A DNA stretch of 64,000 nt from contig NZ_UYYD01000012.1 of the NCBI RefSeq assembly GCF_900625105.1, forward strand, positions 1-64,000, read 5' to 3'. Both the position numbers and the translations under genes were made by a program. Position 1 is the stretch's first letter. Every line of letters begins with the position of its first letter. The stretch is from Agathobaculum sp. Marseille-P7918. Its GTDB lineage: Bacteria; Bacillota; Clostridia; Oscillospirales; Butyricicoccaceae. The notes below the pieces were generated by a model. That model searched no databases, had not been told where the DNA came from, and saw only the letters and a list, made by a program, of their open reading frames with translations. This document shows positions 42,790 through 64,000 of this stretch, piece by piece.

Positions 42790-44016
42790 TTAGCCCTCTG
42801 GCGGGATATACAGGCGGTTGTCCTTCAGCAGTCGAAAGACCAACCTAACCAGTTTTCTGGCAGTAAAAGCGAGTGCACGTTTATGCTAGTACTTGTTGAC
42901 TTCTTTGAATTTGAGGTCATAGTAGCGTCGAAACTCGGAGTCGCATCTTCTCACAGAGTTGGCGGCTTCCATCAGGTAGTAGCGGAGATAGCGGTTGCCA
43001 GATTTAATCATTTGGGAATGTTCGGCCTCAAAGTTACCGGACTGGTTCTTATGCCAGACAAGACCGGCAAATTTGGCAACAGAGGCCTGGGAGTCAAAGC
43101 GTTGAATATTTCCAATTTCAGCGATGATACCAGCGGAGTAGGCCTTGCCAATGCCAGGAATAGAAGTGAGGGTGTTGGGAACGATTTCAAACTGCTGTTC
43201 AATGGCTTTGTCCAAAACTTTGACCTGTTCTTTTAATGCTCGCATAGCGGCAATCGAAACAGACATAGCCTGATTTACAGTGTCGTTCACGGTCTTGGGC
43301 AGACGGTAAGATCCTCTGGCGGCAGCTTGTACCGCTTTTGCGGTAGCGTCCGGGTCAGTGAATCTTCCTCGGCCTATTTCGGTGATAAAGGCAGTCAGTT
43401 GATCTAGATCAGCGTTTGCCAGATCGTCTACTGTCTCAAAGTGCTCCATAAGTGCAATGGTGGTGGCGCTGGTGTTCTTAATGTCCTTGTCCTGAGCCAT
43501 GACAGAACATTTGAGGAATAGGTAGTTGGCAAATCTCTGCTTTTCACGGGTCAGGTTCTGAATGACATCAAATCTGGCTCTGGTAAGCGTTCTGAGTGCC
43601 TGATAGCGATAGTCGTCCATATAGACCTCCTTAGTGATTCTGCCAAAACGGAGATGGTCGGCAATCACAAAGGCGTCCACCCAGTCGTTCTTCGGCAGGT
43701 CTTGATAGACTTCCTTGAACTTTTTGACCTGCTTGGGATTGAGGACATGGATTTTTCGCTGAAACCGGCCAAGGCTGCCATCTTCCCGGAGTGCATAAAC
43801 CAAGCTGTTCCCGTAGATGGAGGTGGCCTCCAGACCAATCACCACGTCACAAAGCTGCAAGGAACTGAGCGCTGACACAATTCTCTCTGACAACAATTTA
43901 GCACCGCCAAGGTTGTTCTGCATGGAGAAACTGGAATGTTTGGTGCCGTCGGGCTTCATCAAGTAGGCAACATTGTTTTTGCTGCTCACATCAATGCCAA
44001 CGAATAATGGATTCAT
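42790..44016 (-). pseudogene. IS110-family transposase with in-frame amber codon
   Basis: The DEDD/RuvC-like domain opens with FVGIDVSSKNNVAYLM, GLEATSIYG and KNDWVDAFVIADHL. The C-terminal transposase_20 domain has IPGIGKAYSAGIIAEIG and the serine motif SGNRYLRYYLMEAA. The frame stops at TAG (42886-42888) after residue 376, yet the same frame continues for 31 more codons (HKRALAFTARKLVRL to RLYIPPEG) to TAA at 42790. IS110 proteins normally continue with such a tail, so a CAG-to-TAG change is likely. GGGGAGGTG precedes the ATG at 44016. It may be inactive or need readthrough. Confidence 0.8.
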
Positions 44017-44019
44017 AAA

Positions 44020-44278
44020 TTTCACCTCCCCGCATGGAGATTTCAGATCAGCAGGCTTTGAGATACCCATGATAGCCGGAGCATCTGCAACCTCGCGTAT
44101 CAGAATCATTCCGGAGAAGTCCAATGCGATATCCCTTACTGCTGAAAGGGCGGCCTTACCTCCGGCAAACAGCCAATGAGTTTGCAGCTATCTTCCGGCT
44201 CAGGGGAACAGACTTACCGTGAAGCAGCCTTTCGGCTCAACTGGAGGTGGTTGAACTTGACCCTGCTGTCCTACAGCT
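44020..44278 (-). ncRNA. Candidate bridge RNA region of the IS110 copy
   Basis: The 5' leader of IS110 elements encodes a structured bridge RNA that pairs with target and donor DNA. Here an extended -10 TGATACAAT (minus strand, 44279-44287) is followed by about 240 bases with several hairpins, including AGCC-GAAA-GGCT. The loops that would pair with target DNA were not worked out. The call rests on position, promoter and folding potential. Confidence 0.4.
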
Positions 44279-45255: not shown

Positions 45256-45744
45256 ATGCAGGAAGAAGTCACCCAGCGCACCGTTGCCCTCTGTGTGGAG
45301 GCCACCAAGCTCTCCGCCGGAATGCTGCAACAGACCATGAAAAAAGTGCTGGACGAGATGCAGAAAGGAGTGACCGGCCACAAGACCAAGCTGCACCACG
45401 GCAAGCAGACCCTCCGGCAACTTATGAAGCACAACACCGGCGTTTCCAACATTGAGATCACCGACCAGAACATCCGGGCCTTTTCCGCCACCGCCAAGAA
45501 GTACGGCATTGACTTAGCGCTGAAAAAGGACACCAGCGGCGAGATACCCCGCTACCTGGTGTTCTTCAAGGGCCGGGATGCCGACGTCATCACGGCGGCC
45601 TTCCGGGAGTTCTCTGCAAAGAATCTGGCGAAAGAGAAAAAGCCCTCCATCCGTAGGGAGCTGGACCGGGCAAAGCAGCAGGCCAAAGCCCAGCACCGCC
45701 AGCGGGAGAAGGTCAAGACCAAAGACCGGGGTGTGGAATTATGA
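45256..45744 (+). CDS. PcfB-family conjugation protein
   Basis: A 162-residue relaxosome/coupling accessory protein. The PcfB core has VALCVEATKLSAGMLQQTM, LHHGKQTLRQLMKHN and FSATAKKYGIDLALKKD; the C-terminus is highly basic (DRAKQQAKAQHRQREKVK). GGAGATGATG lies before the ATG at 45256, 6 bp after the previous stop. It ends in a 4-bp overlap with the coupling protein gene, as in Tn1549 relatives. Confidence 0.85.
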   Translation: MQEEVTQRTVALCVEATKLSAGMLQQTMKKVLDEMQKGVTGHKTKLHHGKQTLRQLMKHNTGVSNIEITDQNIRAFSATAKKYGIDLALKKDTSGEIPRYLVFFKGRDADVITAAFREFSAKNLAKEKKPSIRRELDRAKQQAKAQHRQREKVKTKDRGVEL

Positions 45745-47378
45745 CCGCTACCTGGAAAAAAGTCCTCATCCTCAACCTCCCGTATCTGCTGTTTGTGTAT
45801 CTCTTTGATAAGCTCTGCCAAGCGGTACGCCTCGCGCCCGGCCTTGACGCCTCTGAAAAGTTCCTGCATTTGAGTCAGGGCTTTACGGAGGCGTTTTCTT
45901 CTGGGCTGCCCAGCCTGCATCCGCTGGACCTGCTGGTGGGCATCGCGGGGGCGGTCATCGTCCGGCTGGCGGTCTACGCCAAAGGAAAAAACGCCCACAA
46001 ATACCGCAAGGGCATTGAGTACGGCAGCGCCCGATGGGGCACGGCAGTGGATATTGCCCCCTATGTCGATCCGGTCCCTGACTGGAACATCCCTCTGACC
46101 CAGACGGAAAAGCTCACCATGTCCAGCCGCCCGAAAAATCCCAAGTACGCCCGGAACAAAAACATTCTGGTCATCGGCGGCAGTGGCAGCGGCAAGACCC
46201 GCTTTTTCGTCAAGCCCTCCCTCATGCAGATGCACAGTTCCTATGTGGTCACCGATCCCAAAGGACAGCTTTTGTCGGAGGTAGGGACCATGCTGAGGCG
46301 GGGCGCCCCCAAGCTGGACGAGAACGGAAAGCCCATGCGGGACACCCGCGGGAAGGTCATCTATGAGCCGTACCGCATCAAGGTCCTCAACACCATCAAC
46401 TTCAAAAAGAGCATGAAATACAATCCCTTCGCCTATATCCGCAGCGAAAAAGATATTTTGAAGCTGGTCAATGTCATCATTGCCAACACCAAAGGCGACG
46501 GAGAAAAATCCTCGGAAGATTTTTGGGTGAAGGCCGAGCGCCTTTTGTACTGCGCTCTGATCGGGTACATCTGGTACGAGGCGGAGCCGGAGGAGCGAAA
46601 CTTCCTCACGCTGCTGGAGCTCATCAACGCATCGGAGGCCAGAGAGGACGACGAGGAATTTCAGTCACCCGTGGATATTCTGTTTGCCAAGTTGGAGAAG
46701 GAACACCCGGACCACTTCGCCGTGAAGCAGTACCGCAAATTCAAATTGGCTGCCGGCAAGACCCTGAAATCCATCCTGATTAGCTGCGGCGCCCGCCTTG
46801 CCCCCTTCGATATTGCGGAGCTGCGGGAGATCATGTCGGACGACGAACTGGAGCTGGACACCCTGGGCGACCGGAAAACGGCGCTGTTCCTCATTATGAG
46901 CGACACGGACACCACCTTCAACTTCGTCATTGCCATGCTGCAAAGTCAACTATTCAACCTCCTTTGCGACAAGGCGGACGACGTGTACGGCGGCAGGCTG
47001 CCCGTCCATGTGCGGTGTCTCCTGGACGAGTTCGCCAATATCGGGCAGATACCCAATTTTGACAAGCTGATTGCCACCATCCGGAGCCGGGAAATCTCGG
47101 CTTCTACTATTTTGCAGTCCCAAAGCCAGTTAAAGACCATCTACAAGGACGCCGCAGATACCATTGTGGGCAACTGCGACACCACCTTGTTTTTGGGAGG
47201 CAAGGAGAAATCCACCCTGAAAGAAATCTCGGAGCTGCTGGGCAAGGAGACCATCGACAGCGTGGGTCAATCCGAGAACCGGGGCAGCCAGATTTCCCAT
47301 GGCCTCAACTATCAGAAATTAGGAAAGGATGTGCCATACTTGTTCGTGAAGAGTTCAGTTGCCTTGAATTTATCATGA
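45741..47378 (+). CDS. VirD4/TraG coupling protein, C-terminus replaced
   Basis: A 545-residue type IV coupling ATPase. Two N-terminal membrane helices (near residues 8-22 and 62-80) are followed by Walker A GGSGSGKT at 146-153, YVVTDPKGQL, Walker B VRCLLDEFANIG and QSQSQLKTIYKD. After HGLNYQKLGK (about residue 526) the sequence no longer follows the family: full-length homologues continue for some 70 residues, while here a short foreign tail (DVPYLFVKSSVALNLS) ends at 47378. The break coincides with the left end of the serine-recombinase element, so transfer by this module is probably lost. Confidence 0.85.
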   Translation: MTATWKKVLILNLPYLLFVYLFDKLCQAVRLAPGLDASEKFLHLSQGFTEAFSSGLPSLHPLDLLVGIAGAVIVRLAVYAKGKNAHKYRKGIEYGSARWGTAVDIAPYVDPVPDWNIPLTQTEKLTMSSRPKNPKYARNKNILVIGGSGSGKTRFFVKPSLMQMHSSYVVTDPKGQLLSEVGTMLRRGAPKLDENGKPMRDTRGKVIYEPYRIKVLNTINFKKSMKYNPFAYIRSEKDILKLVNVIIANTKGDGEKSSEDFWVKAERLLYCALIGYIWYEAEPEERNFLTLLELINASEAREDDEEFQSPVDILFAKLEKEHPDHFAVKQYRKFKLAAGKTLKSILISCGARLAPFDIAELREIMSDDELELDTLGDRKTALFLIMSDTDTTFNFVIAMLQSQLFNLLCDKADDVYGGRLPVHVRCLLDEFANIGQIPNFDKLIATIRSREISASTILQSQSQLKTIYKDAADTIVGNCDTTLFLGGKEKSTLKEISELLGKETIDSVGQSENRGSQISHGLNYQKLGKDVPYLFVKSSVALNLS

Positions 47379-54157: not shown

Positions 54158-55807
54158 ATGAGCAGGAAAAAACAAGTCTATGAGAAAATCACTGCTCTCT
54201 ACTGCCGCATCTCTCTGGATGACGGCGGCGATAATGAGAGCATGAGCATCAGCAACCAGAAAATCATGCTTCGGGACTTTGCTGAAAAGCATGGGATGTT
54301 CCAGTATGAGTATTACGTGGATGACGGCTATACGGGCCGTAATTTCAACCGCCCTGCCTTTCAGCGCATGATCGCTGACATTGAGGCGGGGAAAATTGGC
54401 TGCGTCATCACGAAAGACCTATCCAGACTTGGTAGGAATTATATCGAAGCTGGCAGCTATATCGAAATCTTTTTCCCCAAACACAATGTACGCTATATTG
54501 CCATCACGGACGGCGTGGACAGCCTGACCCGTCAGGAGATGGACATTACGCCCTTTAAGAATATCCTGAACGATATGTACAGCCGGGATATTTCCAAAAA
54601 GGTGCTGGCGGGCATCAGCACCCGCTCCCGGCAGGGAAAGTTCTGCGGCGGGACGCCGCCCTTCGGCCTGATGCGTGACCCGGAGGACAAAGGGCATCTC
54701 ATCATTGACCCGGAGACAGCGCCCATCATCCGCAAAATCTATGATTACGCCCTTGACGGGCTGGGCTGCATGAGAATTTCCAAACGGCTGATGGAAGAAA
54801 AAACTCCCATCACCCATGTGAAAGCCAACACGGAGTTTGACGCTAACTACTATTCCTGGGGTGGAGCCAGAATCAGCCACATCCTGCGAAATCCCTTCTA
54901 TAAGGGCGCACATCTGGTTTTTCGGACACACCAGAAGGGCATCCGTTCCAACACCTATGACATTATTCCCCGTGACCAGTGGGAAGTGATCGAGGGCTGC
55001 CATGAGGCCATTGTGACGCCGGAAGAATGGGAACAGGTACAGGAACTCATGGACCGCAGGCCGATCATTAAGGAAAATTCCTGCCCTTTCTACAACCTGT
55101 TCCACGGTCTGGTCTACTGTGCCACCTGCGGGAAGTCCATGCAGCTGCGGTATGAGAAAGTAGGACGAACCGGCAAGAACCGCTTCACCGGCGAGATGCG
55201 GGAACCGATTGATAAAGCATACTATATCTGCCAGACCTACAACCGCATGGGCTGCAAGGTCTGCTCCAGCCACAAGATTGAGGCCAGGGATTTATACAAT
55301 CTGGTACTGAAAGACATTCAGGAACTGGCGGCGCAGGCCATGAAGGACGCCGATGCGTTCTACCAGCGGCTCAGCAGCCGGATGGAGCGCCGGTATCTGG
55401 TGGACGCTTCTCAGACCGAGAAGGAACGTCAGCGGCTGGAAGCCCGAAATCAGGAAATTGACGGGATGTTTTTGAGCTTGTACACGGACAAGGCCAAAGG
55501 CATCCTGACCGAGCAGCGGTTTGTGAAGCTGACGGCGGCGCTGGAACAGGAGCAGGAATCCAACCAGAAGCGCCTGCATGACCTGGCAATGATGCAAAGC
55601 CGGGCTGACGCTCAGGAAAGCGAAGTCCGCACCTTTATCAAGGAAATCCGGCGCTATTCCGCCATCGAGGAACTGGACGAGGCGGTGCTGAACCGGCTCA
55701 TCAGCCGGATTCTGATCGGCGAGGTCAAGAAGGTGGACGGACAAAAGGTGCAGGAAGTCAAGATCGTTTACAACTTTGTCGGGGAAATCCCGGAGATTGC
55801 AGCATAA
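54158..55807 (+). CDS. Large serine recombinase (TnpX-like)
   Basis: A 549-residue recombinase. The resolvase domain has the catalytic serine S19 in LYCRISLDDG and the ITKDLSRLGRNYIEAG motif. A recombinase domain (about 165-290; TPPFGLMRDPEDKG) follows, then a zinc ribbon (YCATCGKSM; YICQTYNRMGCKVCSSHKIE) and a coiled coil. AGAAGGAG precedes the ATG at 54158. It should excise and integrate the nested element as in Tn4451. The last 54 bp recur at 59144. Confidence 0.9.
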   Translation: MSRKKQVYEKITALYCRISLDDGGDNESMSISNQKIMLRDFAEKHGMFQYEYYVDDGYTGRNFNRPAFQRMIADIEAGKIGCVITKDLSRLGRNYIEAGSYIEIFFPKHNVRYIAITDGVDSLTRQEMDITPFKNILNDMYSRDISKKVLAGISTRSRQGKFCGGTPPFGLMRDPEDKGHLIIDPETAPIIRKIYDYALDGLGCMRISKRLMEEKTPITHVKANTEFDANYYSWGGARISHILRNPFYKGAHLVFRTHQKGIRSNTYDIIPRDQWEVIEGCHEAIVTPEEWEQVQELMDRRPIIKENSCPFYNLFHGLVYCATCGKSMQLRYEKVGRTGKNRFTGEMREPIDKAYYICQTYNRMGCKVCSSHKIEARDLYNLVLKDIQELAAQAMKDADAFYQRLSSRMERRYLVDASQTEKERQRLEARNQEIDGMFLSLYTDKAKGILTEQRFVKLTAALEQEQESNQKRLHDLAMMQSRADAQESEVRTFIKEIRRYSAIEELDEAVLNRLISRILIGEVKKVDGQKVQEVKIVYNFVGEIPEIAA

Positions 55808-55942: not shown

Positions 55943-55974
55943 ATTAAATGAAATCAAATAAGGAGGTTCCTACA

Positions 55975-56478
55975 ATGAAAAAAATTGATATTGGCAATGC
56001 GCCTGCTTACACTTCCCCCAATTCCATGACTCTGATCTGTACAGAGAAACCGGATGGCAGCACCAATCTTGCGACTCTGGCATTTTGGGCTTTTGCGTCC
56101 ACCAATCCCGGAAAGATCATGTTCTCCCTGAACAAAGGGGCTTACAGCTTGGAACTGCTGGCTGAGAAGAAAGAAGTTGTTCTCGCCATTCCTGGAGTTG
56201 AACTGACCGGCGCTCTGATAGGCTGTGGCACCTGTTCCGGACGTGATACGGATAAGGCTGCTAAGGTCGGTCTGACGATGCAGGAAGTGGAGGGCACAAA
56301 CATCAAGGCTCCTGTTCCCTGCAAGCTGCTCATTCATGCGACTGTTGCCCAGACGATGGATGCGGACGATCATGTTGTCCACCTCTGCGATATCAAGGGT
56401 GTTTACGGCGATGAAGATGTGGATGCTGTATTTGGCTGGAAAGGTTACGCTGAATTTGCGGCTGCGCAGCAGAAATAA
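55975..56478 (+). CDS. Flavin reductase-like FMN-binding protein
   Basis: A 167-residue split-barrel flavoprotein of the flavin reductase (DIM6/NTAB-like) family. ICTEKPDGSTNLATLAFWAF, KIMFSLNKGAYSLELLAEKK and the RDTDKAAKVGLTMQEVEGTN stretch are characteristic, with CGTCSGRD as a cysteine pair. It may supply reduced flavin or bind FMN for redox chemistry. AAGGAGG precedes the ATG at 55975. It opens the cassette with a MarR regulator and the radical SAM pair. Confidence 0.8.
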   Translation: MKKIDIGNAPAYTSPNSMTLICTEKPDGSTNLATLAFWAFASTNPGKIMFSLNKGAYSLELLAEKKEVVLAIPGVELTGALIGCGTCSGRDTDKAAKVGLTMQEVEGTNIKAPVPCKLLIHATVAQTMDADDHVVHLCDIKGVYGDEDVDAVFGWKGYAEFAAAQQK

Positions 56479-56532: not shown

Positions 56533-56964
56533 ATGAAAACACAAGGCGGATTTTTGATAACCCGGATCAAACAGGTCGGTGGACGTGTTTTTGAACGCAT
56601 ATTGAGCGAAAAAAACATTGATGCTTTTAATGGCTCCCAGGGAAGGATTCTATATATCCTCTGGCAGAAGGATGGCGTTCCCATCAGTGAGTTGTCAAAG
56701 GAGACCGGTCTTGCCACGACCACGCTGACCAGTATGCTCGACCGCATGGAGGCGGCGAACCTGATCTATCGGGACAGAGGCGACAAAGACCGGAGAAAGA
56801 TCCTCATTTTTCTGACAGAAGAAGCCAAAGGTTTGGAGCAGGAATATAATGAAGTAACGGAAGAAATCAGCAACATTTATTACAAGGGATTTTCCGAGGC
56901 GGAAATCGAGCAGCTGGAGAACTATCTCCACCGCATCCTGAAAAATGTGGAGGATGTTCTCTGA
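56533..56964 (+). CDS. MarR-family regulator of the radical SAM pair
   Basis: A 143-residue MarR protein. The winged helix has SQGRILYILWQKDGVPISELSK, ETGLATTTLTSMLDRMEAANLI and the wing YRDRGDKDRRKILIFLTEEA. TTGAGGTGG precedes the ATG at 56533. It overlaps the first radical SAM gene by one base. A MarR protein accompanies this mobile radical SAM pair elsewhere in Firmicutes and presumably senses the pair's substrate or a drug. Confidence 0.85.
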   Translation: MKTQGGFLITRIKQVGGRVFERILSEKNIDAFNGSQGRILYILWQKDGVPISELSKETGLATTTLTSMLDRMEAANLIYRDRGDKDRRKILIFLTEEAKGLEQEYNEVTEEISNIYYKGFSEAEIEQLENYLHRILKNVEDVL

Positions 56965-57653
56965 TGAGCGTCTGCATTAAGGACAATATTCAAAACATGA
57001 ATCTGGTCATCGGCTGTACAGTGGGCTGTCCCTACTGTTATGCCCGGAATAATGTAAAGCGGTATCATATGATAGATGACTTCAGCAGGCCGGAGTTTTT
57101 TCCGAATAAGCTTCGGCTGATGGAAAAGAAGCGCCCGCAGAATTTCCTGCTGACCGGTATGAGCGATTTGGCGGGATGGCAGCCGGAGTGGCGGGATAAG
57201 GTATTCGCAAAGATTCGGGAAAACCCGCAGCATCAATTCCTGTTTTTGTCAAAGCGTCCCGACCTGCTGGATTTTGAGACAGACTTGGAAAACGCATGGT
57301 TTGGCGTCACTGTCACAAGGAAATCAGAGCTGTGGCGCATCGACACGCTGAAGGCCAATATCCGGGCAAAGCACTATCATGTTACATTTGAGCCGCTATT
57401 TGATGATCCCGGCGAAGTGAATCTATCCGGTATCGACTGGATCGTGGTCGGGACGATGACCGGGGCACAAGGTAAAAAAACACGAACAGACCCGGCATGG
57501 GCGTTTTCCCTTGTGGAACAGGCCCACGCTTTCGGCATCCCTGCTTTTATGAAAGAAGACCTTGTTCCCATTGTGGGCGAAACAAACATGGTACAGCAGT
57601 TCCCGGAAGCATTCAACCAGGTGCTGGAGGTACAGAGGAAATGGCACAGATAG
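56964..57653 (+). CDS. Radical SAM mobile pair protein A-like (DUF5131)
   Basis: A 229-residue protein of the DUF5131/phage Gp37-like radical SAM group. The cluster motif C18-X3-C22-X2-C25 (GCTVGCPYCYARN) has the usual radical SAM spacing. FLLTGMSDLAGWQPEW, FLFLSKRPDLL and the GTMTGAQGK loop follow. It starts one base inside the MarR gene and overlaps protein B by 13 bp, so the two are made together. The pair is recognised on mobile elements, but its reaction is unknown. Confidence 0.85.
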   Translation: MSVCIKDNIQNMNLVIGCTVGCPYCYARNNVKRYHMIDDFSRPEFFPNKLRLMEKKRPQNFLLTGMSDLAGWQPEWRDKVFAKIRENPQHQFLFLSKRPDLLDFETDLENAWFGVTVTRKSELWRIDTLKANIRAKHYHVTFEPLFDDPGEVNLSGIDWIVVGTMTGAQGKKTRTDPAWAFSLVEQAHAFGIPAFMKEDLVPIVGETNMVQQFPEAFNQVLEVQRKWHR

Positions 57654-58552
57654 AGATGGGCGGCGTCCTGCTCGGAGAAGTTGAAACGAAAAATATCATG
57701 ACCAAATCCAGTCTGCCGGTGGGCGGATATTCTGTCAACCCCTATGTGGGCTGCACCCATGCCTGCAAATACTGCTATGCATCTTTTATGAAGCGATTCA
57801 CCGGACACTCGGAGGAATGGGGCACGTTCCTTGATGTGAAGCATTGGCCGAAAATCAAAAATCCGAAGAAATATGCGGGACAGCGTATCGTGATTGGCTC
57901 CGTGACCGATGGCTATCTACCGCAGGAGGAGCAGTTTGGCAATACCAGAAAACTGCTGGAGCAGCTTAAAGGCAGTGGTGCGGATATTTTGATTTGTACC
58001 AAATCCGACCTTGTGGTGCGTGACATTGATCTTCTGAAGGAGCTGGGGCAGGTTACAGTGTCGTGGTCGATCAATACGCTGGATGAGGATTTCAAAGATG
58101 ATATGGACAGTGCTGTAAGCATCAAACGGCGGCTTGCGGCTATGAAGCAGATTTATGATGCAGGCATTCGCACCGTCTGTTTTGTTGCGCCGGTTTTTCC
58201 GGGCATCACGGATTTTGAAGCAATCTTTGAACGAGTGAAGGATCAGTGCGACCTATTCTGGCTGGAAAACCTGAACCTGCGCGGCGGTTTCAAAAAGACG
58301 ATTATGGATTACATAGCAGAGAAGCATTCTGACCTTGTGCCGCTTTATGACGAAATCTATAACAAACACAACCGCAGCTATTTCAAAACTCTGGAAGAAA
58401 AAGCCGAAGAAATGGCAAAGCAATATGACTGTCCCTTTGTTGATAATGAAATGCCCTACGGCAGGGTGCCGCAGGGACATCCAATCATCGTAGATTATTT
58501 CTATCATGAGGAAGTCCGTGGAACAGAGAATACAGGAAAACGGAACAAATAA
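57641..58552 (+). CDS. Radical SAM mobile pair protein B-like (SPL-like)
   Basis: A 303-residue radical SAM enzyme of the spore photoproduct lyase/Rv2578c-like group. The cluster motif is C38-X3-C42-X2-C45 (GCTHACKYCYASFM). KRFTGHSEEWGTFLDVK, IVIGSVTDGYLPQE, ILICTKSDLVVRD and VSWSINTLDEDFK follow. AGAGGAA precedes the ATG at 57641 inside gene A. SPL-like proteins repair or modify nucleic acids. With A it may form a two-enzyme modification system; this is an inference. Confidence 0.85.
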   Translation: MAQIEMGGVLLGEVETKNIMTKSSLPVGGYSVNPYVGCTHACKYCYASFMKRFTGHSEEWGTFLDVKHWPKIKNPKKYAGQRIVIGSVTDGYLPQEEQFGNTRKLLEQLKGSGADILICTKSDLVVRDIDLLKELGQVTVSWSINTLDEDFKDDMDSAVSIKRRLAAMKQIYDAGIRTVCFVAPVFPGITDFEAIFERVKDQCDLFWLENLNLRGGFKKTIMDYIAEKHSDLVPLYDEIYNKHNRSYFKTLEEKAEEMAKQYDCPFVDNEMPYGRVPQGHPIIVDYFYHEEVRGTENTGKRNK

Positions 58553-58575
58553 TATATTTAAGGAGAGGTAAAGAA

Positions 58576-58886
58576 ATGAAAAAGTAAAGATTACAGTATT
58601 AAAGACAACTTTAGACAAAGATTTAGCAAAAGAATATGGAGTGAACGGCTTGGGCGTATGTCCTTTCTTTAAAGAGGGCCAGGTATTTGTCACGGACATT
58701 TCAAAACCAGATGGATTTTGCGATGAGGCATGGAAAGCAATTTCTCATTATGCATTTGCGTTATCTCATGGTCACACGGAACCGTTTTTTGGCGGAAGCT
58801 GGATTGAAAACCCTGAAGTAGCAATAACTTGCTGTAATGATGGAATTCGCCCGGTAGTTTTCAAAATGGAAACTGTAAATGAATAA
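58576..58886 (+). pseudogene. TIGR04076-like protein with frameshift after start
   Basis: The ribosome site AGGAGAGGTA precedes ATG at 58576, but that frame reads ATG AAA AAG TAA. Deleting one base fewer from the A run would join it to the long frame beginning GTA at 58584, which reads KITVLKTTLDKDLAKEYGV, then CPFFKEGQVFV, DEAWKAISHYAFALSHGH and ITCCNDGIRPVVFK. This is the TIGR04076 family of small proteins of unknown role. Either the gene is broken, or slippage on AAAAA or a GTG start at 58641 allows expression. Confidence 0.65.
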
Positions 58887-59143
58887 ATCAATAACTGTAT
58901 ATCAAAGACAGTTGGAATAGTCACCGGCGCCGCTTTTTCATCACTGGTGACAGCACCGCCTGCCTTTGCAGGCAGACAATCACAGGTGACAGTATAGAGT
59001 GCTACCGCACCCTCCACTATCATTCAAAACTGAATACCAGCCACCCAATAGCGGTCAGCGACAGCAGCAAGTCTGAAAAGATTTGCTGCTTTTTTTATTG
59101 TCCGATTAACCATTTTAAATTCATCACTTGACATTGTGGCAAA
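58887..59143. other. Noncoding remnant region
   Basis: No intact gene is seen. A short frame just after 58900 (KTVGIVTGAAFSSLVTAPPAF, a signal-like peptide) lacks a start, so it looks like a gene fragment. A terminator lies at 59063-59096. Confidence 0.4.
59063..59096 (+). terminator. Rightward terminator
   Basis: AGCAGCAA at 59063-59070 pairs with TTGCTGCT at 59083-59090 with an inner TCT/AGA stem, followed by six T residues. Confidence 0.75.
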
Positions 59144-59197
59144 GAGGTCAAGATTATTTATAACTTTGTCGGGGAAATCCCGGAGATTGCAGCATAA
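59144..59197 (+). repeat. Copy of the serine recombinase 3' end
   Basis: These 54 bases encode EVKIIYNFVGEIPEIAA and TAA, matching the last 54 bases of the recombinase gene (55754-55807) at about 50 of 54 positions. The recombinase gene itself is absent upstream. The copy flanks the radical SAM pair cassette (55808-59143), so it marks either a second, lost recombinase gene or an end of a mobile cassette. Confidence 0.75.
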
Positions 59198-59213
59198 GAA
59201 CAATACAATGGAA

Positions 59214-59257
59214 AAACAGACAAGTTTTACTAATAGTGCAAAACTTGTCTGTTTTTT
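59214..59257. terminator. Bidirectional terminator
   Basis: AAACAGACAAGTTTT at 59214-59228 pairs with AAAACTTGTCTGTTT at 59240-59254, with T residues on both sides. It ends the minus-strand HxlR gene. Confidence 0.85.
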
Positions 59258-59585
59258 ATTGCCGTCCTTCTTTTTTATATGCGCTTCCCCACTGCTCCAT
59301 TGCAATGATGATGGGACGCATGGATTCTCCCAATTCACTCAAAGCGTATTCGACTCGTGGAGGCACTTCTGGATAAACTGTCCGGGTGATAATACCATCT
59401 GCTTCCATAGACCGTAGGCTGTCCGTCAATACCTTTTGGCTGATACCTGCTAAGTCCTTTTTCAATTCGTTAAATCTCCAGGGGCGCAGGAGCAGATTTC
59501 GCAGAATCAGAAGTTTCCATTTACTCCCAATGATTGAAACGGTCGTAGCTACCGGGCAGGCAGGCATTTCTTCTTTTGTCAGCAT
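59256..59585 (-). CDS. HxlR-family regulator
   Basis: A 109-residue winged-helix protein with CPVATTVSIIGSKWKLLILR (the family cysteine near residue 11), LRPWRFNELKKDLAGISQKVLTDSL and PPRVEYALSELGESM. The ATG at 59585 is preceded by GAGGTG. It is divergent from the cysteine-repeat peptide gene, and a GTCAC-N6-GTGAC dyad lies between them. It is the likely regulator of the peptide/maturase cluster and may sense redox or electrophile stress through its cysteine. Confidence 0.85.
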   Translation of the reverse strand: MLTKEEMPACPVATTVSIIGSKWKLLILRNLLLRPWRFNELKKDLAGISQKVLTDSLRSMEADGIITRTVYPEVPPRVEYALSELGESMRPIIIAMEQWGSAYKKEGRQ

Positions 59586-59662
59586 ATTTTCACCTCATTC
59601 CTATAGTTCAAAATCAAATGTTATATTTAAATTATAATGTAGTATGCGATTGTTTTCAAGTG

Positions 59663-59678
59663 GTCACAAAAAGGTGAC
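59663..59678. promoter_or_regulatory. Candidate HxlR operator
   Basis: GTCAC at 59663-59667 and GTGAC at 59674-59678 form a dyad in the divergent region between the HxlR gene and the cysteine-repeat peptide gene. A TACAAT -10 box for the peptide gene lies at 59724-59729 with no clear -35. Confidence 0.45.
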
Positions 59679-59779
59679 TAAGTAATAGATTTGTGCGTAC
59701 TTTTTTTTACTTTCTTTATCCAATACAATAAAAATCAAGAACCGAAAAGGTTCTAAAATCTAAAATGGAGGTAATAACA

Positions 59780-60052
59780 ATGGCACTTTCTAATCTGTCC
59801 GGATGGAGCAAAAAGGCTGAAGCGGCTCCTGCCTCTGCCTGTGGCTCTGCTTGCGGTGCAGCCGATAAGCCGGAAGAAAAGCCCGCTGCCTGCGGTGCGG
59901 CTGATAAGCCGGACGAGAAGCCCAGCGCCTGTGGTTCTGCTTGCGGTGCAGCCGATAAGCCGGAAGAAAAGCCCGCTGCCTGCGGTGCGGCTGATAAGCC
60001 GGACGAGAAGCCCAGCGCCTGTGGTTCTGCTTGCGGTGCTGGCGACAAGTAA
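59780..60052 (+). CDS. Cysteine-repeat peptide (ACGX type), likely RiPP precursor
   Basis: A 90-residue peptide. The first 20 residues (MALSNLSGWSKKAEAAPASA) act as a leader. The rest is two copies of a 30-residue unit (SACGSACGAADKPEEKP, then AACGAADKPDEKP) and a final partial unit, giving eight cysteines at 21, 25, 38, 51, 55, 68, 81 and 85. ATGGAGGT precedes the ATG at 59780. A radical SAM/SPASM maturase follows after a hairpin. Peptides with ACG repeats next to such enzymes are ribosomally made and modified, probably at Cys or neighbouring residues. The product is unknown. Confidence 0.85.
   Translation: MALSNLSGWSKKAEAAPASACGSACGAADKPEEKPAACGAADKPDEKPSACGSACGAADKPEEKPAACGAADKPDEKPSACGSACGAGDK
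59840..60049 (+). repeat. 90-bp tandem repeat inside the peptide gene
   Basis: Bases 59840-59929 and 59930-60019 are identical except for one silent change (GGC/GGT), and a third copy is cut off at 60049. Near identity shows recent duplication and suggests that copy number varies between strains. Confidence 0.9.
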
Positions 60053-60073
60053 TCTTTTCCATCCCCCAAAACC

Positions 60074-60103
60074 ATTCCCGGCGGACGTGTTCCCGCCGGG
60101 AAT
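60074..60103 (+). terminator. Attenuator between peptide and maturase
   Basis: ATTCCCGGCGG at 60074-60084 pairs perfectly with CCGCCGGGAAT at 60093-60103 around ACGTGTTC. The T tract is poor (TCTTG), so partial readthrough is expected: much precursor, little enzyme, as is usual for RiPP operons. Confidence 0.7.
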
Positions 60104-60156
60104 TCTTGAATACTTTCTCGGTAAATCCGATTTGATATAAAGTGAGGTTATCACAG

Positions 60157-61188
60157 ATGAAACAGTATTTTTCTTTTCAGTGGCACATTACAGATGAATG
60201 TGACCAGCGTTGCAAGCACTGCTACATTTTTTCCGAAGACACCTGTAAACATCTGGACTCCATGACATGGGAGCAGATGCGGGACACTTTCTATAACTGC
60301 CTGGATTTCTGCCAGGTGTATGATCGGCTGCCCTACTTCTACATCACCGGCGGCGATCCCATCCTGCATCCCGATTTTTGGAAGCTGCTGGCTCTCATGA
60401 AAGAGCATGACATTCCCTTCACCATCCTGGGCAACCCCTTCCACCTGAACGATGAGGTCTGCCGCAGGCTGAAAGAATACGGCTGTGAGAAATATCAGCT
60501 GTCCCTGGACGGTATGCGGGAAACTCATGACTGGTTCCGCAAGCCGGGCAGCTTTGACATCACGCTGGAGAAGGTCGGCTGCATCAACCGGGCGGGCATC
60601 CGTAGTGTAATTATGACCACCGTCTCCGGCACCAACATCGACCAGGTACCCGACATCATTGATGCGGCGGTCGAGGCCGGAGCCAATGTCTTTGCCTTTG
60701 CCCGCTATTGCCCCACCAGCGAGGAAAAGGACGTGGGGATCACGCCCCAGCGTTACCGCCAACTGCTAGCGGACTGCGACAAAAAGTTCAAGGCGTATGA
60801 GGCGGCGGGCTGCCAGACTTACTTTAACAAGAAGGATCATCTCTGGACGCTGTACGAATACGAAACCGGTGCGTTCAAAATCCCGGAAGCGGTGGGAAAA
60901 GGGATGATTTACGGTGGCTGCAACTGTGGCAACTGCCATCTGACCATTCTGCCCACCGGTGATATTTACGCCTGCCGCCGGGTTCAGAACAGCAAGGTGG
61001 GCAACGTATTTGAAGATCGTCTGGCTGATGTCTGGATCTGTCAGATGGAGGCATACCGGGATTACTCGAAATTTGAAAAATGCTCCAAATGCGAACTGCT
61101 GGCCTTCTGCCGGGGTTGTCCTGCGGTTGCCAGCGGCAAGGACGGCAATTTCTATGCGGCTGATCCGCAGTGCTGGAAGGAGGTCTAA
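60157..61188 (+). CDS. Radical SAM/SPASM peptide maturase
   Basis: A 343-residue enzyme. The radical SAM cluster motif is C15-X3-C19-X2-C22 (DECDQRCKHCYIF), followed by FYITGGDPILHPDF and QLSLDGMRETHDWFR. The C-terminal SPASM part carries the auxiliary cluster cysteines GGCNCGNCHLTILPTGDIYACRR and CSKCELLAFCRGCP. Such enzymes make thioether or other cross-links in peptides. It follows the cysteine-repeat peptide, the presumed substrate. GTGAGGT precedes the ATG at 60157. Three nitroreductase-type genes follow closely. Confidence 0.88.
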   Translation: MKQYFSFQWHITDECDQRCKHCYIFSEDTCKHLDSMTWEQMRDTFYNCLDFCQVYDRLPYFYITGGDPILHPDFWKLLALMKEHDIPFTILGNPFHLNDEVCRRLKEYGCEKYQLSLDGMRETHDWFRKPGSFDITLEKVGCINRAGIRSVIMTTVSGTNIDQVPDIIDAAVEAGANVFAFARYCPTSEEKDVGITPQRYRQLLADCDKKFKAYEAAGCQTYFNKKDHLWTLYEYETGAFKIPEAVGKGMIYGGCNCGNCHLTILPTGDIYACRRVQNSKVGNVFEDRLADVWICQMEAYRDYSKFEKCSKCELLAFCRGCPAVASGKDGNFYAADPQCWKEV

Positions 61189-61190
61189 TG

Positions 61191-61769
61191 ATGGAGTTAT
61201 TTGAACTCATGAAATACCGTCGATCAATCCGCAAGTATCAGAACAGACAGATTGACCGGGAGAGCTTACAAAAAATCATTGAAGCAGGGCTATATGCTCC
61301 GAACGCTGGAGGTGGACAGAGAACATTCATCTGTGCCATTCACGATAAAGACCTGTGTGAAAAAATCGGAAAACTCAATATCATCCGGTTTGATAGATCA
61401 AAGCTGGCAGGTTCCTATGTCTCAGAGGATCAGCCCAGCATTATTGATAACCCTGCTATTAAGAGCGGTTTTTACGGTGCCCCTACGGTTTGCGCAATTT
61501 TTGCTCCGAAGAATTTTTTATATAGTATTCCCGACGCTTTTTGCTGTGCTGAAAATATGGTGCTGGAAGCAACTGCACTTGGTATTTCTTCTTGTATTAT
61601 TGCAAGGGGTGAGGAAACCTTTGATAACGAAATCGGCAGCCAACTTTTAGAAAGATGGGAAATTCCAAAAAACTATATTGCCAGATGTTTTGTGCTGCTT
61701 GGTTACTGTAATGGTGAATATCCTCAAGTGAAAGCCAGAAAAAAAGGACGATATAAAATTATTGGCTAA
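61191..61769 (+). CDS. Nitroreductase-family FMN protein 1
   Basis: A 192-residue flavoprotein. KYRRSIRKYQNRQI, the EAGLYAPNAGGGQRTFI FMN loop, and the GAPTVCAIFAPK and ENMVLEATALGISSCII segments are typical of the nitroreductase fold. The ATG at 61191, 8 nt after AAGGAGG, is used; an ATG at 61188 overlaps the maturase stop. In RiPP clusters, such enzymes oxidise azolines or form dehydro residues, but that role is inferred here. Confidence 0.85.
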   Translation: MELFELMKYRRSIRKYQNRQIDRESLQKIIEAGLYAPNAGGGQRTFICAIHDKDLCEKIGKLNIIRFDRSKLAGSYVSEDQPSIIDNPAIKSGFYGAPTVCAIFAPKNFLYSIPDAFCCAENMVLEATALGISSCIIARGEETFDNEIGSQLLERWEIPKNYIARCFVLLGYCNGEYPQVKARKKGRYKIIG

Positions 61770-61783
61770 GGGAGAAATGTACG

Positions 61784-62662
61784 ATGGGAGCAGAACAAAA
61801 AGCTCATTTTAAGGTTGATAAATCAAAATGTATTCAGTGCGGAAAATGTATTAACACTTGTACTGGCATGGTGCTTGCCTTTGGCAAAGATGGACACCCG
61901 GAAATGAAAGAATTTGAACGCTTCGGATGGCGTGGCTGCTGGAAATGTCAGCACTGTCTTGCGGTATGTCCCCAGGGGGCAATCTCCATTTTTGATAAAA
62001 GAGCGGAAGATTCTCTGCTTCCCCCTCCGTCCGAAATGGGAAACTATATGGAGCGCCTCATTGTAAACCGCCGTTCCTGCCGCCGGTATCTGGACAAAAA
62101 TGTAGACCCGCAGGTTATCAGTAGAGTTTTAGAGGCAATGTCGGCTGCCCCGACCGGGGGGAATTCCTGCAATGTGGAATACACGGTCATTGACGATAAG
62201 GAGCGTGTCAAGGAAATCTGGCGGCTTGCTTACTCCAAAATGGAATCGGATGCAAAGCAGCATATTTACACCCGTAGCTTCAGTGATTTTTATTATGGGA
62301 AGATGAAGCAGTCAGAAAGAACCGTGAGGAAAAACGATCTGCTGTTCTGCGGCGCACCGCATCTGTTCATCGCTCATGAAAAGTGTGCGGGAAAATGGGC
62401 CGAGGATTCTAAGGTGAACTGCAACATTGCAACGGCATATTTTGAACTTCTTGCAAATGCGTTTGGCCTGGGAACTGTGATTATGAGTTATCCGGCGGAG
62501 GTGTTGGAGGAACTCGCTCCAAAGGCCAGAGAGCTGCTGAATATCCCCCAAAACCACTATATGAAACTGATGGTTGGATTTGGTTATCCGGAGATTCCTT
62601 ATGCAAGAGGTGTCCAAAAGGATCGGGGACGTAAAATCCACCGGTATACAGAGAGCAGATAG
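61784..62662 (+). CDS. Ferredoxin-nitroreductase fusion
   Basis: A 292-residue protein. Residues 10-80 form a two-cluster ferredoxin domain: C16-X2-C19-X2-C22-X3-C26 (CIQCGKCINTC) and CWKCQHCLAVCPQ. The nitroreductase domain follows, with NRRSCRRYLDKNV, SAAPTGGNSCNVEYTV and FELLANAFGLGTVIMSYP. The clusters can pass electrons to or from FMN. GGGAGAAATG precedes the ATG at 61784, 14 bp after the previous gene. Confidence 0.88.
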   Translation: MGAEQKAHFKVDKSKCIQCGKCINTCTGMVLAFGKDGHPEMKEFERFGWRGCWKCQHCLAVCPQGAISIFDKRAEDSLLPPPSEMGNYMERLIVNRRSCRRYLDKNVDPQVISRVLEAMSAAPTGGNSCNVEYTVIDDKERVKEIWRLAYSKMESDAKQHIYTRSFSDFYYGKMKQSERTVRKNDLLFCGAPHLFIAHEKCAGKWAEDSKVNCNIATAYFELLANAFGLGTVIMSYPAEVLEELAPKARELLNIPQNHYMKLMVGFGYPEIPYARGVQKDRGRKIHRYTESR

Positions 62663-62675
62663 GAGGGGATACTCT

Positions 62676-63275
62676 ATGGACTTTATGGAAATATCCAAAA
62701 AGCGGGTCACCGTGCGTAAATTCGCACAAACGCCTGTGGAAAAAGAAAAGATACAGAAGATACTGGAGGCAGGACGCTGGTCTCCCACAGCGGTCAATGG
62801 CCAGCCCCAGCGAATCCTTGTGCTGAATACCCCGGAGAGTTTGGAAAAGGTTCGGGAATTTTGTTCCTTTGGTTACGATCAGAAATATGTGGATTTGGCA
62901 GAGGAATGTAACGATAAATCCCAGGGCAAACTTAACTTCTACTACGGCGCACCGCTGGTTCTGTTTGTGACCTATGACAAAACGGCCTGCTGGACAAACC
63001 CGCACAGCGGAGAAAGTAGCGGCCAGACGGATGCCACGATTGTGGCCACCCATATGATGCTGGAAGCGGCCAGTCTGGATCTGGGGACCGTTTGGATCAG
63101 CTACTTCGACAAGGACAAGGCCAGAGAATTGCTCTGTCTGCCGGAAAATTGGCAGCCGGTCTGTATGCTCTACATCGGTTATCCGGCAGTGGATTTTGTC
63201 CCCAACACCAAACTGGGATGCCAAAGGAAGCCGTTAGAAGAAACCTGCTTTTTTCATGAGGTTCCTGTGCAGTAA
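62676..63275 (+). CDS. Nitroreductase-family FMN protein 2
   Basis: A 199-residue flavoprotein with ISKKRVTVRKFAQTPVEKE, EAGRWSPTAVNGQPQRIL, YYGAPLVLFVTYDKTACW and MMLEAASLDLGTVWISYFD, the standard nitroreductase pattern. AGGAGGGG precedes the ATG at 62676, 13 bp after the fusion gene. It is the third flavoenzyme gene of the cluster in a row, all three probably expressed with the maturase. Confidence 0.87.
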   Translation: MDFMEISKKRVTVRKFAQTPVEKEKIQKILEAGRWSPTAVNGQPQRILVLNTPESLEKVREFCSFGYDQKYVDLAEECNDKSQGKLNFYYGAPLVLFVTYDKTACWTNPHSGESSGQTDATIVATHMMLEAASLDLGTVWISYFDKDKARELLCLPENWQPVCMLYIGYPAVDFVPNTKLGCQRKPLEETCFFHEVPVQ

Positions 63276-63287
63276 GGAGGCAGCCGC

Positions 63288-64000
63288 ATGAATCAGACAG
63301 AACGAAGATTATTTTTAATCAAAAAGCTGCTCTCAGAGCAGTCGAGGTATCACGACATGGGAATACCAGAAGAGGAACCGGAACAAAAGAGACTGCTGCG
63401 TTCTCTCCTGAATATTCGTATGCCAGAGCCGGTCAGTGATGAATTTTTAGCGGTACAGGATGCCTATTTGCAGGAAGAACTCCGGTGCAAAAAAATTACG
63501 GAGCTTTCCAACCTATCTCCTGTGCAGGAAGGTATTTATCTCTGGCAAGGGGATATTACCACACTTGCCTGTGATGCGATTGTCAATGCGGCGAACAGCC
63601 AGATGCTGGGCTGCTTCTGCCCTTGTCACGGTTGCATCGACAATGCGATCCACACCTATGCAGGCGTTCAGCTTCGCCTCGCCTGCGCCGAACTGATGGA
63701 ACAGCAAGGCCACGAAGAAGAGACCGGCAAAGCAAAAATTACACCGGCCTTTAACCTGCCCTGCCGCTATGTTCTGCATACGGTTGGGCCTATTGTTCAG
63801 GGAGGGCTTACAAAGAAAGACAAAGAACTTCTTGCGTCCTGCTACCGTTCCTGTTTGGCATTGGCGGAGAAAAATAATCTGAGAAATATTGCGTTTTGCT
63901 GCATCTCGACCGGGGAATTTCATTTTCCGAATGATAAAGCAGCGGAGATTGCCGTTCAGACCGTAAAGGAATACCGGCAGGAAACGCATACCAATATGGA
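63288..64000 (+). CDS. Zinc-type macrodomain (protein-ADP-ribose hydrolase-like), partial
   Basis: The frame is open to the window end after 237 codons. A helical N-terminal part (about 1-75) precedes a macrodomain: GDITTLACDAIVNAANSQML, then the cysteine/histidine segment GCFCPCHGCIDNAIH that binds zinc in the Zn-macro class, and VLHTVGPIV and ISTGEFHFPNDKAAEIAV. Such enzymes remove ADP-ribose from proteins and often pair with a SirTM-type ADP-ribosyltransferase and a lipoylated carrier. GTAAGGAGG precedes the ATG at 63288. The gene continues beyond 64000. Confidence 0.85.
   Translation, partial: MNQTERRLFLIKKLLSEQSRYHDMGIPEEEPEQKRLLRSLLNIRMPEPVSDEFLAVQDAYLQEELRCKKITELSNLSPVQEGIYLWQGDITTLACDAIVNAANSQMLGCFCPCHGCIDNAIHTYAGVQLRLACAELMEQQGHEEETGKAKITPAFNLPCRYVLHTVGPIVQGGLTKKDKELLASCYRSCLALAEKNNLRNIAFCCISTGEFHFPNDKAAEIAVQTVKEYRQETHTNM

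Follow-up and report, generated by a model that had tools for sequence, protein, structure and literature searches.

We analysed a window of 64,000 nucleotides from the clostridial bacterium Agathobaculum sp. Marseille-P7918 (positions 1 to 64000 of contig NZ_UYYD01000012.1, which runs on to 67166) and focused on a gene cluster near its right-hand end, built around a cysteine-repeat peptide and a radical SAM enzyme. Positions 59256 to 63275 hold a divergent gene for an HxlR/DUF24-family regulator (59256 to 59585, minus strand; PF01638, 2.5e-32) and, on the plus strand, a gene for a 90-residue peptide, AcgA (59780 to 60052), a gene for a SPASM radical SAM peptide maturase, AcgM (60157 to 61188), and genes for three nitroreductase-fold flavoenzymes, namely, NR1 (61191 to 61769; PF00881, 2.7e-21), FdNR2 (61784 to 62662; a ferredoxin part with two 4Fe-4S motifs fused to a nitroreductase, matching Fer4 families and PF00881), and NR3 (62676 to 63275; PF00881, 7.1e-34). 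All of these parts had been named in a first-pass annotation of the sequence and were recovered here. A sequence resembling a ribosome-binding site precedes each gene and the intergenic gaps from acgM onward measure 2 to 14 nt, and the genes from 59780 onward probably form one operon, which would be read as a single transcript. Very probably, the operon continues beyond 63275 into a macrodomain gene (63288 to 64000 in the window, ending at contig position 64067; plus strand) and a gene for a SirTM-like (class M) sirtuin beyond the window (contig 64012 to 64902, plus strand). Because these two genes follow on the same strand, the interval annotated at first stops short of the full probable operon; the macrodomain/SirTM half, the operator-like motif, and the mobile-element setting described below were all absent from that annotation.

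The cluster had been called undescribed, a label that does not apply to its core. The peptide and maturase correspond to the ACGX pair of NCBIfam, since AcgA scores 108.7 bits with TIGR04341 (acgA, target_ACGX; cut-off 28; E value, 1.6e-31) and AcgM scores 602.5 bits with TIGR04340 (acgM, rSAM_ACGX; cut-off 400). The names acgA and acgM are used in the RefSeq record of a Roseburia plasmid, whose gene order is similar to that of the window: a divergent helix-turn-helix regulator, acgA, acgM, a nitroreductase, a 4Fe-4S protein, a protein-ADP-ribose hydrolase, and Sir2. The NCBI models cover the peptide and maturase only, and the regulator, its site, the exchangeable redox genes, and the SirTM/macrodomain genes lie outside the named pair, as far as we have seen. 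In the literature searched, in which most subscription papers are missing, we found no paper on the ACGX system (acgA/acgM, TIGR04340/TIGR04341) and none joining SirTM with radical SAM enzymes. As far as these searches show, the redox/SirTM setting, the operator-like motif, and the CX3D register of the peptide have not been described.

Conservation of the cassette was evaluated in a census of the best 80 of 457 relatives (L001 to L004 left out), which leans to close relatives of the window because only those 80 were retained. At least 1.5 kb of upstream sequence was available for 66 of the 80 loci and at least 4.5 kb of downstream sequence for 52, and the family models used were built from clusters within these same 80 loci. 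A target peptide was called in 61 of the 66 loci with enough upstream sequence and a divergent HxlR gene was found within 3.5 kb in 55. The HxlR regulator, the peptide, and the maturase are a genuine linked unit, more constant than any single redox gene.

AcgA has a leader beginning MALSNLSGW and ends in ACGAGDK, and its 8 cysteines are arranged in CX3C and CX3D steps. Tandem Repeats Finder detected in acgA a 90-nt unit present in 2.3 copies with a 99% match; a period scan over 60 to 119 nt gave nothing above its 80% threshold. Candidate precursors were present in 77 of the 80 census loci, and the 65 with a recognised leader, together with that of the window, made up a set of 66, all distinct. 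They are composed of Cys-rich, acidic, Lys-rich repeats in variable number, with 2 to 15 cysteines per precursor, and the C-terminal sequence CGA-X-DK is found in 52 of the 65 precursors from outside the window. The residue at position +4 of the 459 cysteines is Asp in 238 cases, Cys in 211, and another residue in 10, and Gly comes right after 457 of them. Since only these 10 cysteines stand outside CX3C or CX3D, the peptide consists of CX3C and CX3D steps strung together, the last Cys of a unit facing Asp. Expressed for the 248 cysteines that are not in CX3C, +4 is Asp in 238 and Glu in 1. We also collected a second set of 21 precursors (20 distinct), from which L120 and L132 were set aside as repeats of L032 and L064, leaving 18 new sequences from plasmids and from genomes outside the first set. 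In these 18 precursors, 76 of the 114 cysteines lie outside CX3C, and 65 of the 76 have Asp or Glu at +4; for the 17 bacterial members, the count is 65 of 69 (Asp in 60, Glu in 5). The precursors of L117 to L119 have a different leader and different linkers and retain CX3D/E.

The maturase is intact by its cysteines: the CxxxCxxC motif and nine C-terminal cysteines of AcgM are each conserved in 87 to 90 of the 89 to 90 aligned rows. A close parallel to its pairing with the repeat peptide is the PapA/PapB ranthipeptide system, whose product is named freyrasin. In that system, too, repeated CX3D motifs are encoded beside a SPASM radical SAM enzyme, and PapB joins Cys to Asp at the beta carbon, or to Glu at the gamma carbon, in CX3D/E motifs and also tolerates other Cys-acid spacings (PMC9413430, PMC10470005). 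Unlike in PapA/PapB, the maturase of the window lies outside the PapB family, CX3C steps stand between the CX3D steps, and the operon setting is one of redox genes. On the strength of the shared register, AcgM probably works like PapB on its own substrate without being PapB, and we chose the wording "like PapB" because AcgM falls below the cut-off of that family. Thioether or azole-like chemistry had been proposed for this cluster; the CX3D register lends support to the thioether, whereas the azole was not supported by the analysis of the flavoenzymes presented below. A role of AcgM as an anti-phage viperin was also set aside, the scores of 51.9 and 36.2 bits with PADLOC viperin models being taken as distant radical SAM kinship.

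The start of acgM lies 104 nt downstream of acgA, and the spacer folds at -30 kcal/mol (z of -3.6) with a hairpin at 60074 to 60103 (plus strand) made of an 11-bp stem and an 8-nt loop. This is the place of the attenuator in the first-pass annotation. The hairpin itself stands, but a terminator-type attenuator was discarded, since a T-run is absent and no terminator was called at the hairpin, so that "intercistronic hairpin" is the safer name. Folding is widespread at this position, with z below -2 relative to mononucleotide shuffles in 57 of the 63 spacers scored, the window included (one further spacer, of 17 nt, was too short). An Rfam scan of 58500 to 63998 gave no family at gathering score. 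The spacers of many loci carry one of two hairpin types, unrelated in sequence and located in the same place (GTTCCCGGCGGG...CCCGCCGGGAAC and GCCTGATGAACCGGT...ACCGGTTCATCAGGC), and a second small hairpin is frequent nearer the acgM start.

The redox genes downstream of acgM are constant as a class and exchangeable as individuals. Every one of the 52 downstream-complete loci carries at least one gene for a nitroreductase, a quinone oxidoreductase, or a PNPOx/4Fe-4S protein; a nitroreductase is present in 34 loci, a quinone oxidoreductase in 16, both in none, and neither in 2, and the PNPOx/4Fe-4S protein is present in 34 (the names quinone reductase and PNPOx rest on one scanned representative each, L070 and L048). 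The quinone reductase, which is unrelated to the nitroreductases, occupies the place in the operon that NR1 has in the window. The nitroreductase is a single reading frame in 31 of the 34 loci and one gene in two pieces in L038, and two nitroreductases are found only in L041 and in L064, where the second gene is split into two frames. With 32 loci having one nitroreductase gene, 2 having two, and none having three as the window does, the azole-like, stepwise oxidation that had been suggested is not supported, and the three nitroreductases are not the conserved part of the cassette. Relatives of FdNR2 occur in L035, L041, and L061 and, in two frames, in L064; L035 and L061, for which less downstream sequence was available, have a quinone reductase followed by the FdNR2 relative. 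The model of the SagB azoline dehydrogenase gave 17 bits on NR3, far from its cut-off of 78.4; with E values up to 1 allowed, neither NR1 nor the nitroreductase part of FdNR2 had it among the listed matches, and no cyclodehydratase was among the listed profile matches of the operon proteins. Among these matches, the operon proteins thus show neither the SagB-type dehydrogenase, at its cut-off, nor the cyclodehydratase that mark azole-containing ribosomally synthesized and post-translationally modified peptides (RiPPs; here the thiazole/oxazole-modified microcins). As the exchange of nitroreductase for quinone reductase, never both in any of the 52 loci, is further evidence against azole chemistry, we rejected azole formation by these nitroreductases.

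Genes for ADP-ribosylation follow the redox genes. The macrodomain protein scores 377.6 bits with NF003163 (cut-off 272), and its best solved match, 8RSI, aligns over residues 3 to 259 of its 262. Zn-macrodomains are characterised by a Cx4HxC zinc loop, NAAN, Dx3H, and an N-terminal extension (PMC11490716). The window protein contains CFCPCHGCIDNAIH, which comprises Cx4HxC and Dx3H, as well as NAAN, and all three motifs are present in 53 of 60 homologues; it is thus predicted to be a Zn-macrodomain of the protein-ADP-ribose hydrolase type. The sirtuin (L085:6013-6900) matches the SpySirTM structure 5A3A with an E value of 2.1e-74, and Asn118, Gln137 (in place of the deacylase His), and Arg192 are all aligned, as expected of a SirTM, the chain numbering of 5A3A being taken as 10 ahead of that in the paper (PMC4518038). 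Of 76 sirtuins, 72 show both the Asn and the Gln pattern and 38 a rough Arg pattern. Extended SirTM operons of staphylococci and streptococci encode GcvH-L, LplA2, OYE, and LLM, with a proposed redox role (PMC4518038, PMC11490716). The operon shares with them the SirTM Asn/Gln/Arg set, the Zn-macrodomain, and flavin oxidoreductases but has a Cys peptide linked to a radical SAM enzyme instead of GcvH-L and LplA2, neither of which is among the listed matches of the scanned operon proteins, and an HxlR gene alongside. According to PMC11490716, GcvH-L is the only known SirTM target, and the targets elsewhere are given as unknown.

The association of the ACGX cassette with SirTM extends beyond the window. 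A sirtuin is present in 30 of the 52 downstream-complete ACGX loci and a macrodomain in 18. A sirtuin was counted as SirTM at E values up to 1e-20, which includes fragments and copies below 40% identity. In a sample of 197 genomes of the order, with ACGX in 9 and a sirtuin in 46, the sirtuin was found in 8 of 9 ACGX genomes and 38 of 188 others, and in a sample of 398 genomes of the phylum, with ACGX in 10 and a sirtuin in 21, in 8 of 10 and 13 of 388. The corresponding Fisher values of 4e-5 (1.5e-4 without the own genome) and 6e-10 (9e-9 without it) overstate independence because the samples share G000 and G027 and the genomes are related. With sirtuins of at least 50% identity only, the counts were 8 of 9 against 33 of 188 in the order (1.5e-5) and 7 of 10 against 7 of 388 in the phylum (1.3e-9), subject to the same caution. 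The sirtuin gene lies next to ACGX, downstream on the same strand, in 4 of the 9 ACGX genomes of the order sample (G000, G027, G055, and G112) and in 6 of the 10 of the phylum sample (G000, G027, G260, G404, G491, and G571, with an internal stop in G571 and a cut at the contig end in G491). Stop codons inside the aligned stretch were seen in SirTM matches of several genomes (G571, G500, G415, G327, G115, G182, G157, G058, G108, G054, and G113), a sign that the sirtuin is perhaps decaying in them. A tree was built of 70 sirtuins (one of 71 was dropped as short). The ACGX-linked label requires 16 changes on it, at least 9 of them on well supported branches, and is more clustered than chance (mean of 22.8 for shuffled labels, with 1 of 500 shuffles as low). 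Because so many changes are needed, we conclude that the pairing was made or lost many times; a single origin is not supported by this tree, although transfer and loss also yield many changes. The pairwise identities of macrodomain and sirtuin correlate at 0.57 and those of HxlR and AcgM at 0.40.

At the other end of the operon, the regulator contains one cysteine, Cys10. This N-terminal Cys is present in 70 of the 70 rows having a residue there (71 aligned, with the window counted twice), and a stricter recount placed PxCP near the N terminus of 57 of 61 adjacent homologues, the exceptions being L010, L013, L038, and L054. DUF24 regulators of Bacillus sense quinones, hypochlorous acid, and diamide via an N-terminal Cys, and DUF24-type control covers the nitroreductase gene yodC, whose product acts on diamide and quinones (PMC6943732). 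The YodB, CatR, HypR, and RrpB regulons thus resemble the window in their N-terminal Cys and nitroreductase-type targets; the window regulator scores 115 bits with the RrpB model, below the cut-off of 175, and its likely target genes are other than those of the Bacillus regulons. A formaldehyde-type HxlR was rejected, as the B. subtilis formaldehyde sensor relies on a Cys-X-Lys pair, Cys11 and Lys13 (PMC7835342), and the window protein reads PAC10PVATT, with Val in the position of the Lys. Four loci lacking a detected HxlR gene (L025, L034, L039, and L052) instead carry, upstream of the cassette, a regulator gene that was identified by eye as Rrf2-like.

The divergent promoter region contains a conserved element at 59677 to 59702 (plus strand) that ends in GTGCGTACTT. 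The 9-mer GTGCGTACT was present in 45 of 49 related intergenic promoter regions, whereas across 20 shuffles no 9-mer reached more than 5. GTGCGTACTT lies upstream in 59 of the 70 ACGX loci with at least 900 bp of upstream sequence (60 of 70 when G/T is allowed at one position, and 0 with the reversed pattern). A longer pattern drawn from these sites has a single genome-wide match, at 59677 to 59702, and its reversed control has none. Upstream of the conserved site, the sequence reads as an inverted repeat, GTCAC-N6-GTGAC (59663 to 59678), and similar repeats were seen by eye, uncounted, in many of 22 promoter regions. Outside ACGX, we inspected 30 SirTM loci not adjoining the cassette; in four of them (L094, L106, L114, and L115), the genome has ACGX elsewhere. 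The strict GTGCGTACTT was found in 6 of the 30, with no occurrence of the reversed strict pattern in 302,810 bases. The relaxed form GTGC[GT]TACTT on the operon strand, up to 2.6 kb upstream, was found in 12 of the 30 (for eight of the 30, less than 2.6 kb of upstream sequence was available) and in 10 of the 12 whose stretch holds an HxlR gene, counts that are no independent test because the form was chosen after looking at those loci; the strict form is the test. ACGX cassettes and some SirTM operons thus appear to be controlled by the same kind of regulator and site, and the motif is a candidate HxlR operator. Nine SirTM operons without ACGX (L086, L089, L093, L098, L100, L105 to L107, and L110) stand beside HxlR genes and also include PNPOx-like, metallo-beta-lactamase-like, or NAD-binding genes, partly named by eye; most carry GTGCTTACTT or GTGCGTACTT, and L107 carries neither. 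They perhaps belong to a wider HxlR-SirTM redox regulon.

The reading we favour, to which we give an even chance, is that of a thiol/electrophile stress operon under HxlR control, whose intracellular peptide is thioether-crosslinked by AcgM at its CX3D sites; the electrophile-response setting is the firmer half of this proposal and the type of bond the weaker half. By analogy with YodB and CatR, HxlR would hold the divergent promoter through the GTGCGTACTT region and be released once its conserved Cys is oxidised or alkylated. The intercistronic hairpin could protect or separate the acgA message, giving AcgA in excess over the enzymes. AcgM would then link Cys to the Asp or Glu four residues on, generating small thioether rings along the repeat; in each CX3C step, the leading Cys might either remain free or become linked as well. 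The product would be retained intracellularly and serve in redox or metal handling, since no exporter or peptidase gene is constant in the operon. The flavoenzymes or the quinone reductase might remove quinone-like electrophiles, supply electrons to AcgM via ferredoxin domains, or both. Where present, SirTM would add ADP-ribose to some member of the operon and the Zn-macrodomain would remove it. The setting suggests that AcgA is a stress-response peptide rather than an exported antibiotic.

Several observations weigh against this proposal. AcgM scores 64.9 bits with the PapB family NF047865 (cut-off 340) and is thus not a member, and it scores higher with AhbD (118 bits) and with the selenobiotic SbtM (TIGR04082; its second-best NCBIfam match at 163 bits, below the cut-off of 350), so its chemistry may differ from that of PapB. 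In close relatives, Gly+1, Ala+2, and Lys+5 are about as conserved as the acidic +4; for the 69 cysteines outside CX3C of the further bacterial set, Ala+2 is found in 63 and Lys+5 in 47, compared to 65 for Asp/Glu+4. The peptide of the archaeal relative has Glu at +3, not +4, behind all 7 of its cysteines. Nearly half of the precursor cysteines sit in CX3C and are left unexplained by CX3D chemistry alone. In 11 of the 66 loci, no HxlR gene was detected close to the cassette, and the motif may be a promoter element rather than an HxlR site. SirTM is absent from 22 of the 52 ACGX loci, 13 of the other 30 have no macrodomain gene in the stretch examined, and between AcgM and sirtuin the correlation of pairwise identities is weak (rho of 0.22, with 6 of 300 permutations as high). 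To our knowledge, a quinone reductase is not expected as an electron donor for a radical SAM enzyme.

The same data can be accommodated by other explanations. AcgA might be a metallothionein-like or thiol-buffer peptide that carries little or no modification, with AcgM acting mainly elsewhere or building a CX3C metal centre. The Cys-rich, acidic, Lys-rich composition with its varying number of cysteines, the lack of a constant exporter, and a regulator that is likely redox-sensing all agree with such a peptide, which we nevertheless consider unlikely: the target peptide lies upstream of AcgM in nearly all loci with enough sequence, AcgM retains its complete radical SAM and SPASM Cys set, and Asp/Glu+4 is kept in L117 to L119 despite their different leader and linkers. 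Another possibility is a detoxification operon for quinones, nitro compounds, or aldehydes, made of the nitroreductase or quinone reductase and HxlR, in which the peptide system and SirTM are passengers that came to share the promoter via gene transfer. The YodB/CatR-type logic (PMC6943732), the mobile setting with TraG, a serine recombinase, and TrbL, and the weak AcgM-SirTM distance correlation speak for passengers, but no single redox gene is as constant as the core of HxlR, peptide, and maturase, and the scattered ACGX-SirTM pairing, with its forced changes on the tree, is expected if the pairing recurs, even though transfer and loss could also produce it. On balance, we find the passenger explanation improbable.

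A classical RiPP pathway, in which successive action of the maturase and the nitroreductases on the peptide, by thioether formation and azole-like oxidation, yields a secreted natural product, would account for a SPASM maturase adjoining a repetitive precursor and for a hairpin between precursor and enzyme genes. Nitroreductase-fold dehydrogenases do act in azole RiPPs. The poor SagB score, confined to NR3, the missing cyclodehydratase among the listed matches, and the replacement of the nitroreductase by a quinone reductase in 16 of 52 loci argue against it. In addition, no peptidase was recognised among the clusters present in at least 4 of the 80 loci, and transport-type clusters are scattered in position or strand (ABC ATPase in 9 loci, MATE-like in 10, EamA-like in 4, and P-type ATPase in 4; all these clusters were named by eye). 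An azole or antibiotic product is unlikely, and we regard the complete RiPP pathway as very doubtful. Returning to the electrophile stress operon, we also entertain a bolder version, which we hold to be rather unlikely: AcgA might be a second kind of SirTM substrate, a crosslinked Cys/Asp repeat that replaces lipoyl-GcvH-L as a thiol redox carrier, is served by the flavin enzymes or quinone reductase, and is switched by ADP-ribosylation, for example, on Asp or Glu. If true, this would answer the question raised in PMC11490716 of SirTM targets outside GcvH-L operons.

The surroundings of the cassette suggest that the system travels on mobile elements. It is flanked by genes for a TraG-type coupling protein (45741 to 47378), a serine recombinase (54158 to 55807), and a TrbL-like protein (contig 66451 to 67116), with an IS110 transposase (42886 to 44124) and a "radical SAM mobile pair" (56964 to 58552) as further flanks, and is probably cargo of an integrative conjugative element. 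Such a setting is consistent with the occurrence of closely similar maturases in many genera. A phage location was rejected, as a phage collection gave no AcgM match at 1e-40. The radical SAM mobile pair, proteins A and B (TIGR04471 and TIGR04470), lies directly upstream of the cassette and is preceded by a flavin-reductase-domain gene (55948 to 56478) and a MarR-like gene (56533 to 56964; named by eye); together, these genes look like a second, separate redox cargo block. On the other side, the gene order after 63275 is macrodomain, sirtuin, and then a DUF5131 protein (contig 64859 to 65776, directly after the sirtuin) that matches the PADLOC candidate-defence models PDC-M30B and PDC-M41B. 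An archaeal ACGX-like locus is found on the Methanosphaera plasmid pNP174 (L127:6001-7025). Its maturase is 60% identical and has been annotated as a pair of neighbouring genes, and it is accompanied by a Cys-repeat peptide, a helix-turn-helix gene in divergent orientation, and a zinc-binding dehydrogenase. A quinone-reductase-like gene lies downstream, and BREX genes are located near this locus.

With these features, a peptide system that had been catalogued and, in the literature searched, not studied becomes testable, since the CX3D register predicts a specific bond and the motif predicts a regulator and a stimulus. Where GcvH-L is absent, the recurring SirTM/Zn-macrodomain neighbourhood suggests a candidate for what these ADP-ribosylating sirtuins act on. 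An electrophile stress operon of this kind would connect radical SAM peptide maturation to redox stress, not to antibiotics, in gut Clostridia and on an archaeal plasmid.

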